Source: Natronomonas gomsonensis
GTDB taxonomy: Archaea; Halobacteriota; Halobacteria; Halobacteriales; Haloarculaceae
Length of the DNA: 64,000 nucleotides
Reading direction: 5' to 3'
NCBI RefSeq assembly: GCF_024300825.1
Contig: NZ_CP101323.1
Coordinates: 3,286,001 to 3,350,000 of the forward strand
Notes under the pieces: generated by a model
What the model saw: the letters and a program-made list of their open reading frames with translations, nothing else
The model's database searches: none
What the model was told of the DNA's origin: nothing
Shown: in pieces, positions 50,713 through 55,931 of the stretch
Layout of the letters: every line of letters starts with the position of its first letter
Numbering within the stretch: the stretch's first letter is position 1
Made by a program: the position numbers and the translations under genes

Positions 50713-50754
50713 ATCATTGGATCGGTGACCGAGATAAGAGGCCCTTGTGGTGGC

Positions 50755-51054
50755 TCAAACGAGCGTTTGAGAGACGCCACTGCCACCGCTAACTGGCGGG
50801 AACAGCGCGAGTTCGTCGCCCTCCTCCAGTACCGTCTCGTGGCCGTCGTCTTTCACGAAGGGGTTGTGGTCGTTGCGGAGAACGCGGATGTGGTCGCGAA
50901 TCTCGCCGTCGTCGAGCACTTCGTCTCTGAGTTCGGGATGGGTCTCCAGCAGTTGCTCGAAAGCCTCACCGAACGTGTCGCCGGGACCCGCCTCGACCGT
51001 GACACGTTTCGTGCCGGCGGCTTCGGCGAGGTTGGCGAACAGTCGCCATTCCAT
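50755..51054 (-). CDS. SAMP1-like ubiquitin-fold modifier with C-terminal tail
   Basis: A 99-residue MoaD/SAMP1-type beta-grasp protein. It has the family opening [14 protein letters not shown] and ends [11 protein letters not shown] at residues 82-91. SAMP1 of Haloferax ends exactly at this diglycine, which its E1 (UbaA) adenylates. Here eight further residues (SGVSQTLV) follow before the stop, so the diglycine is internal and would need proteolysis to be usable, as for ubiquitin precursors. The stop codon in frame is clear. It is divergent from tgtA. Confidence 0.85.
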
Positions 51055-55388: not shown

Positions 55389-55670
55389 ATGAACCTCGAG
55401 TTGCGGTTTTTCGCGACGTTTCGGAAGGCCGTCGGTCAGAAAGTCGTCGAACGGGAGTACGACGACGACGCGACGGTCGGCGACGTGCTCGCGGCAATCG
55501 AATCGGAGTGGCCGGAACTCGTCGGCGAAATCCTCGACGACGACGGCGACATCCAGCCGCAGTTGACCATCCTCAAGAACGGCCGGGAGGTGGTCCACAT
55601 CGACGGCACCGAGACGGAACTGGACGACGGCGACCGGTTGAGCGTCTTCCCGCCGGTGGCGGGTGGATAG
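55389..55670 (+). CDS. SAMP3-like ubiquitin-fold modifier, MoaD family
   Basis: A 93-residue beta-grasp protein (NLELRFFATFRKAVGQK, then LKNGREVVHIDG) ending in the usable diglycine SVFPPVAGG directly before the stop. This is the SAMP1/SAMP3 type of small archaeal modifier, adenylated by UbaA and joined to lysines; some members also supply sulfur for molybdopterin. An in-frame ATG at 55362 overlapping the upstream stop would add 9 residues. The next gene starts at the base after its stop. Confidence 0.9.
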   Translation: MNLELRFFATFRKAVGQKVVEREYDDDATVGDVLAAIESEWPELVGEILDDDGDIQPQLTILKNGREVVHIDGTETELDDGDRLSVFPPVAGG

Positions 55671-55931
55671 ATGCAGGAGACCCGGCAGTTCCGCGGTATC
55701 TCGAAGCGGTTGGCCGCGGACTACCTCGAAAACCTCGGCGGCGCCCGAACCGACGAGAGCGGTGACCGAATCGAGGGCGACGGCTGGCACGCCGACCTCT
55801 CCGAGGAGCAAGTGGATGTCGTCGGGTCGATAACGCTGACCGAAGTGACCGTCGACTTCGAGGGCGACGACGAGACGCTGGAACCGCTCATCGAGGACTT
55901 CGCCCGGAAGGCGATGCGTGCGGGTGGGTAG
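55671..55931 (+). CDS. Small protein, possibly DUF1952-like, ending in diglycine
   Basis: An 86-residue protein (ETRQFRGISKRLAADYLENLGG, then EEQVDVVGSITLTEVTVDFEGDD) that also ends in Gly-Gly before its stop. The alpha-beta pattern and position recall DUF1952, a ferredoxin-like domain fused behind MoaD in a Thermus protein. That link is my memory of family architecture and is not confirmed here. It starts immediately after the SAMP gene and is followed without gap by another small gene. Confidence 0.7.
   Translation: MQETRQFRGISKRLAADYLENLGGARTDESGDRIEGDGWHADLSEEQVDVVGSITLTEVTVDFEGDDETLEPLIEDFARKAMRAGG

Follow-up and report, generated by a model that had tools for sequence, protein, structure and literature searches.

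In Natronomonas gomsonensis the diglycine of the ubiquitin-like modifier SAMP1 is encoded behind an eight-residue C-terminal tail, and the gene, located in the 64,000-nucleotide stretch of DNA analysed here (the window), probably encodes a pro-SAMP1, the tail of which would have been made by stop-codon drift and would be trimmed after Gly91 by a desampylase of the HvJAMM1 type. In the proposed scheme, the stop codon that followed the diglycine would have disappeared in the ancestor of this species and two sister species, so that translation would now continue for eight codons through what had been 3' flank before meeting another stop in frame. The JAMM/MPN+ desampylase, encoded beside UbaA, would cut after Gly91 whatever residues come next; UbaA could then adenylate the mature SAMP1, which would serve molybdopterin synthase and the modification of proteins as it does in Haloferax volcanii. 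The same drift may have taken place many times over in haloarchaea that possess the desampylase, the tails being harmless because the enzyme would remove them. From the genomes we infer the cut itself, the cut site, the enzyme and the neutrality of the tail.

The SAMP1 open reading frame lies on the minus strand (positions 51054-50755; the initial annotation gave no strand) and comprises 99 codons followed by TGA. Residues 1-91 (50782..51054) constitute the beta-grasp core, delimited by translation, profiles, PDB matches and an AlphaFold2 model, and terminate in FPPVSGG at residues 85-91. This core matches the NCBIfam SAMP1 equivalog NF041918 over model positions 1-91 of 91 with 118.3 bits (cut-off 60) and Pfam ThiS with 49.3 bits, aligns with the solved H. 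volcanii SAMP1 (PDB 2l83, 3po0 and 4hro), FPPVSGG included, and contains both the MEW..LFA start and the VSGG motif of haloarchaeal SAMP1. The tail SGVSQTLV (residues 92-99, 50758..50781), a putative read-through of the former 3' flank, has no match in the NCBIfam SAMP1 model or the H. volcanii SAMP1 structures; the stop codon TGA (50755..50757) lies in the right arm of a palindrome. Translation, the 118-bit profile score and the PDB alignment agree with the initial annotation, which described a SAMP1-type protein with FPPVSGG at residues 85-91 followed by SGVSQTLV and an in-frame TGA. The encoded protein has no free diglycine at its end, eight residues intervening before the TGA, and on the evidence of its sequence the gene is classed as a pro-form ortholog of SAMP1 rather than a canonical SAMP1. 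In the AlphaFold2 model pLDDT is about 90 or more across most of residues 1-80 and falls beyond, being below 50 for residues 90-99; disorder is thus predicted from Gly90 on, placing the diglycine in a stretch that is probably flexible and accessible.

When the 20 genomes of the genus were searched at the protein level, with no C-terminal motif required, each yielded a SAMP1, and FPPVSGG is kept by every one of the 20 proteins. Tails homologous to that of N. gomsonensis occur in its two closest relatives, G016 (SSVAQRPV) and G002 (DGGVAQRPV), and end at the same TGA. Most of the genus is tailed, with tails other than that of this clade: the remaining members have AR, SRK, GR, RRR, CGAG, CRR, RR, KVQ, or no tail. 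In the tailless genome G006, TAA directly follows the diglycine, and the flank behind it, TTTGAGCCACCACAAG, can be aligned with the DNA behind the N. gomsonensis gene. Since this flank is recognisably the same, the tail appears to be former 3' flank read through to the next in-frame TGA, which lies within the palindrome CTCAAACGCTCGTTTGAG.

The palindrome CTCAAACGctCGTTTGAG extends over the last tail codons and the stop (50754..50771). Its core TCAAACGnnCGTTTGA occurs exactly twice in the genome, at 50754-50771 of the window and at G000:C1:614015-614030, each time preceding a predicted lipoprotein gene, and the palindrome is a possible operator of the next gene. Similar palindromic sites are located behind SAMP1 in G001. 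Part of the conservation of the tail at the DNA level may stem from the palindrome or from the promoter of the next gene. That the tail exists because of an RNA hairpin or terminator was considered and rejected, the RNA fold z-score of -0.74 giving it no support; a DNA site is more likely.

Tailed SAMP1 with an intact diglycine is present in at least 53 of the 392 sampled haloarchaeal genomes, representing at least 21 genera and 8 families; these are minimum figures, as the last base of the pattern misses about a quarter. With the pattern for the SAMP1 terminus, 334 of the 392 genomes of the order gave a match (one mismatch allowed, SAMP3 partly included), and patterns demanding a sense codon after the diglycine matched 31 and 14 genomes. 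Five matches were excluded from the count, namely L182, L183, L188 and L196, which tblastn did not recover as SAMP1, and G171; 13 further tailed genomes were added from the matches listed for the SAMP1-end pattern. The order-wide pattern requires PPV..GG and is blind to loss of the diglycine, so that only the genus-wide search is free of this bias. Eleven kinds of first tail residue were found across the order, and tail length ranges from 1 to 113 residues, many tails being very short (1-4 residues). Between genera the tails have no common sequence or length. On core-CDS trees, built on about 270 bases of SAMP1, at least 13 changes in tail presence are counted with 80 rows and at least 19 with 140 rows (enriched for tails), gain and loss being indistinguishable in these counts. 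In G158 (L246) the secondary stop of its sisters (SGRR* in G172, G183, G192, G198 and G205) is lost and the frame continues for 113 codons, covering an apparent convergent neighbour gene.

The machinery for the proposed processing is encoded by the genome. It contains one HvJAMM1-type desampylase (NF041370; 174 bits, cut-off 130), in which the JAMM motif E..HSHPRGPAEPSDTD is intact with E, HSH, S and D in place, as well as UbaA (NF047750; 489.5 bits, cut-off 450) and MoaE. The desampylase and UbaA genes are adjacent and convergent (G000:C1:2559891-2561081 and beyond, L173). An MsrB-like gene is located two genes from this pair (L173); for H. volcanii, PMC5587910 mentions the participation of the methionine sulfoxide reductase MsrA in sampylation.

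The desampylase was searched for in 80 genomes, 59 with a tailed and 21 with a tailless SAMP1, the latter chosen without knowledge of the outcome. It was found in 58 of the 59 tailed versus 11 of the 21 tailless genomes (p = 2e-6, uncorrected for kinship); the sole tailed genome without a match, G018, is an 82% complete MAG. Counted by genus, it is present in 21/21 tailed versus 5/13 tailless (p = 7e-5), and within the family to which the window belongs in 3/3 versus 2/9 (p = 0.045). Desampylase presence changes five times on the tree, and its association with tails mostly tracks related lineages. In an independent-pairs test the direction was nearly always as expected, the informative pairs, fewer than six, being too few for significance. 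With kinship considered, the association is suggestive. Because the desampylase is also found in 5 of the 13 sampled tailless genera, it would permit tails and not cause them. Ten nearly complete haloarchaeal genomes have no desampylase match and keep a SAMP1 with free diglycine. These ten genomes fall in the coded genera g2, g4, g5, g8, g10, g13, g14 and g68.

Pro-SAMP1 could be trimmed by a different protease, either a JAMM2-type protein or carboxypeptidases halting at the diglycine, and this is unlikely, if worth considering. Almost every genome of the genus codes for a second Prok-JAB protein, of the JAMM2 type, among them the tailed G018, where the search detected no JAMM1, and the many tails of 1-4 residues could be removed by exopeptidases; however, tails of 37-113 residues would be awkward for such enzymes, the tails track the HvJAMM1-type desampylase, and it is HvJAMM1 that has the exact activity required (PMC4443979).

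The window also contains an ortholog of SAMP3 with a free C-terminal diglycine (55389..55670, plus strand). It closely matches H. volcanii SAMP3 (best PDB match 2m19, 118.7 bits), and its stop codon stands right behind VAGG. Thus the SAMP3-like gene that had been noted 4.3 kb away is confirmed, as is the co-occurrence of both forms, a tailed SAMP1 and a free-diglycine SAMP3 being encoded together. Directly after the SAMP3 stop lies a gene for a small DUF1952-like protein, itself ending in GG (55671..55931, plus strand; Pfam PF09189 at 21.2 bits, just below the cut-off of 22), which possibly belongs to the haloarchaeal TBP-like family with C-terminal GG (arCOG06308; PMC2948915). Jointly, SAMP3 and the DUF1952-like frame align to the Thermus MoaD-related protein 1v8c over residues 6-179; as the latter spans both parts, the pair occurs fused as well as split. 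In one MAG of the genus (L030, G019:C23:50228-50515, minus strand) SAMP3 has no stop after VAGG and continues in frame into the DUF1952-like protein, giving a fused product of 181 residues with AGG at its end, while in the window a single stop parts the two genes. A third MoaD-like paralog (G000:C1:566907-567188, minus strand; L003/L259) has SPGVSGG followed by AATTRLAEVAQ, the corresponding tails in sister species being TATARLAEASQ and TAMARLAEVPQ; the stop codon of this paralog overlaps the ATG of the next gene, and its tail could have a role in translational coupling. Another candidate, a PF02597 match at C1:2541821 (L178), was considered as a possible SAMP2.

Comparison of the N. gomsonensis SAMP1 gene with that of G016 yielded dS 0.245 and dN 0.022 for the core, a dN/dS of about 0.09, versus dN 0.267 and dS 0.18 for the eight codons of the tail. 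Evolution is therefore some tenfold quicker in the tail than in the core (dN 0.27 versus 0.02), with a nonsynonymous excess at Fisher p = 0.003 (small counts). By these rates strong purifying selection appears to have acted on the core, buried diglycine included, ever since it gained the tail, while the tail drifts. Such a combination of a constrained core and a drifting tail is expected of a protein that uses its diglycine and sheds its tail; because the tail is far faster than the core, a functional tail and a dead modifier are both poor fits. Of the two interpretations offered in the initial annotation, a precursor that must be cut is the best reading of the gene, given the constrained core, the fast tail and the presence of desampylase, UbaA and MoaE.

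The other interpretation, an inactive variant, is disfavoured by the same selection on the core and the same three encoded proteins. E1-like activation requires a free C-terminal glycine, and conjugation could be covered by SAMP3 with its free diglycine; nevertheless, that the tail renders SAMP1 inactive or purely non-covalent in N. gomsonensis is very improbable in view of the low dN/dS of the core since the tail arose. Moreover, the diglycine is retained in all tailed homologues seen (the order-wide pattern presupposes GG), SAMP1 is single-copy in nearly all genomes, UbaA and MoaE are retained, and tailed forms are too widespread and too recurrent for pseudogenes.

A conserved, regulated propeptide, the cutting of which controls when SAMP1 turns active, is less probable again. 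Three sister species keep the tail, and in Halorubrum the tail is mostly xVGR, its G and R codons varying solely at third positions (12 distinct sequences); it is possible that the Halorubrum tails, or their DNA, are partly constrained, so that not every tail need be neutral. Against this, the tail of the N. gomsonensis clade resembles unconstrained sequence, with dN exceeding dS over its eight codons, and tails of different genera share neither sequence nor length. The 'control' step suggested by the initial annotation is not supported: fast-evolving tails unrelated between genera fit tolerated stop-codon drift better. The presence of a homologous tail throughout a clade, to which the same annotation had looked, is found among the three sister species and stops short of other genera; random tails in homologues, one half of what it had named as speaking against a cut precursor, are what the comparison between genera reveals. 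Finally, a sequencing or assembly artefact, which a single base change removing a stop could have produced and which the initial annotation had raised as a frame error, is rejected, since the tail recurs in homologous form, with the same stop, in independent genomes of two sister species, and many other genera have tails of their own.

With pro-SAMP1 and its desampylase as the preferred reading, a wider proposal is tentative and could somewhat sooner fail than hold: haloarchaeal SAMP1 would often be a natural pro-protein, the desampylase would be its obligatory maturase and not just a remover of conjugates, and a neutral ratchet would operate on the stop codon. The blind Gly-Gly precision of the desampylase would free the SAMP1 stop codon to drift, and tails would accumulate only in genomes that retain the desampylase, and would thereafter make the enzyme indispensable to the cell. 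What is new here is that tailed SAMP1, probably a pro-form, occurs naturally and repeatedly in haloarchaea, with a suggestive link to the desampylase; no description of tailed haloarchaeal SAMP1 or of its link to desampylase was found in the open-licence PMC literature searched. The described role of the haloarchaeal desampylase is the removal of SAMPs from conjugates. If the proposal is true, this enzyme gains a second, upstream role, the activation of modifiers, parallel to eukaryotic deubiquitinases and to the Caldiarchaeum system, and its loss should abolish SAMP1 function in tailed species, but not in tailless ones. The recurrent, unrelated tails would then illustrate cleanly how a processing enzyme can allow neutral evolution. 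In genome annotation, the absence of a terminal GG is no evidence of a dead SAMP.

Among known systems, eukaryotic pro-ubiquitin, pro-SUMO and FUBI-eS30 are likewise precursors trimmed after GG, in their case by cysteine-protease DUBs, and have no orthology to haloarchaeal SAMP1 at this level. A close counterpart is H. volcanii SAMP1 (HVO_2619), which has the same beta-grasp fold, aligns over residues 1-91 and is accompanied by UbaA and desampylase in the same genome; it stops at the diglycine, whereas the N. gomsonensis protein has eight more residues. In H. volcanii, HvJAMM1 splits a linear SAMP1-MoaE fusion precisely behind GG, and the cells depend on this cut for molybdenum-cofactor activity and DMSO respiration in vivo (PMC4443979). 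The diglycine is needed for HvJAMM1 cleavage in vivo (PMC4443979) and is not required in vitro, according to a citation in PMC8832034; the requirement for a free C-terminal glycine is also stated for Ubl-MoaE fusions (PMC4443979). Like the present gene, this artificial fusion and the natural bacterial MoaD-MoaE fusion cut by DRJAMM (PMC8832034) have an internal diglycine; its exposure by a JAMM enzyme yields an active sulfur carrier in both fusions, and would do so here. In both fusions the extension is a partner enzyme, whereas here it is a short tail without similarity to any protein.

A maturation cut is therefore not new in principle, being preceded by HvJAMM1, CsJAMM and the capped bacterial carriers, and the initial claim that such a step is undescribed for SAMPs does not stand beside HvJAMM1 acting on SAMP1-MoaE (PMC4443979) and CsJAMM on SAMP precursors (PMC6043591). 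Bacterial sulfur carriers with capped diglycines are known (PMC6006322): PtmS2 (GG-MV), PtmS3 (GG-C) and QbsE/QbsD have residues behind GG that are removed by a JAMM-type protease before activation; they belong to the sulfur carriers of secondary metabolism and are not SAMP orthologs. With JAMM-cut precursors in general the N. gomsonensis gene shares an extension behind GG and a cognate JAMM protease in the same genome. Also comparable are the SAMP and ubiquitin precursors of Candidatus Caldiarchaeum subterraneum, in which a tail is encoded after GG and maturation is carried out by the cognate JAMM proteases CsJAMM, which is reported to cleave the SAMP precursors, and CsRpn11 (PMC6043591). That organism is not haloarchaeal and its genome also has a eukaryote-like ubiquitin system; unlike in Caldiarchaeum, the tails of haloarchaeal SAMP1 come and go between close species.
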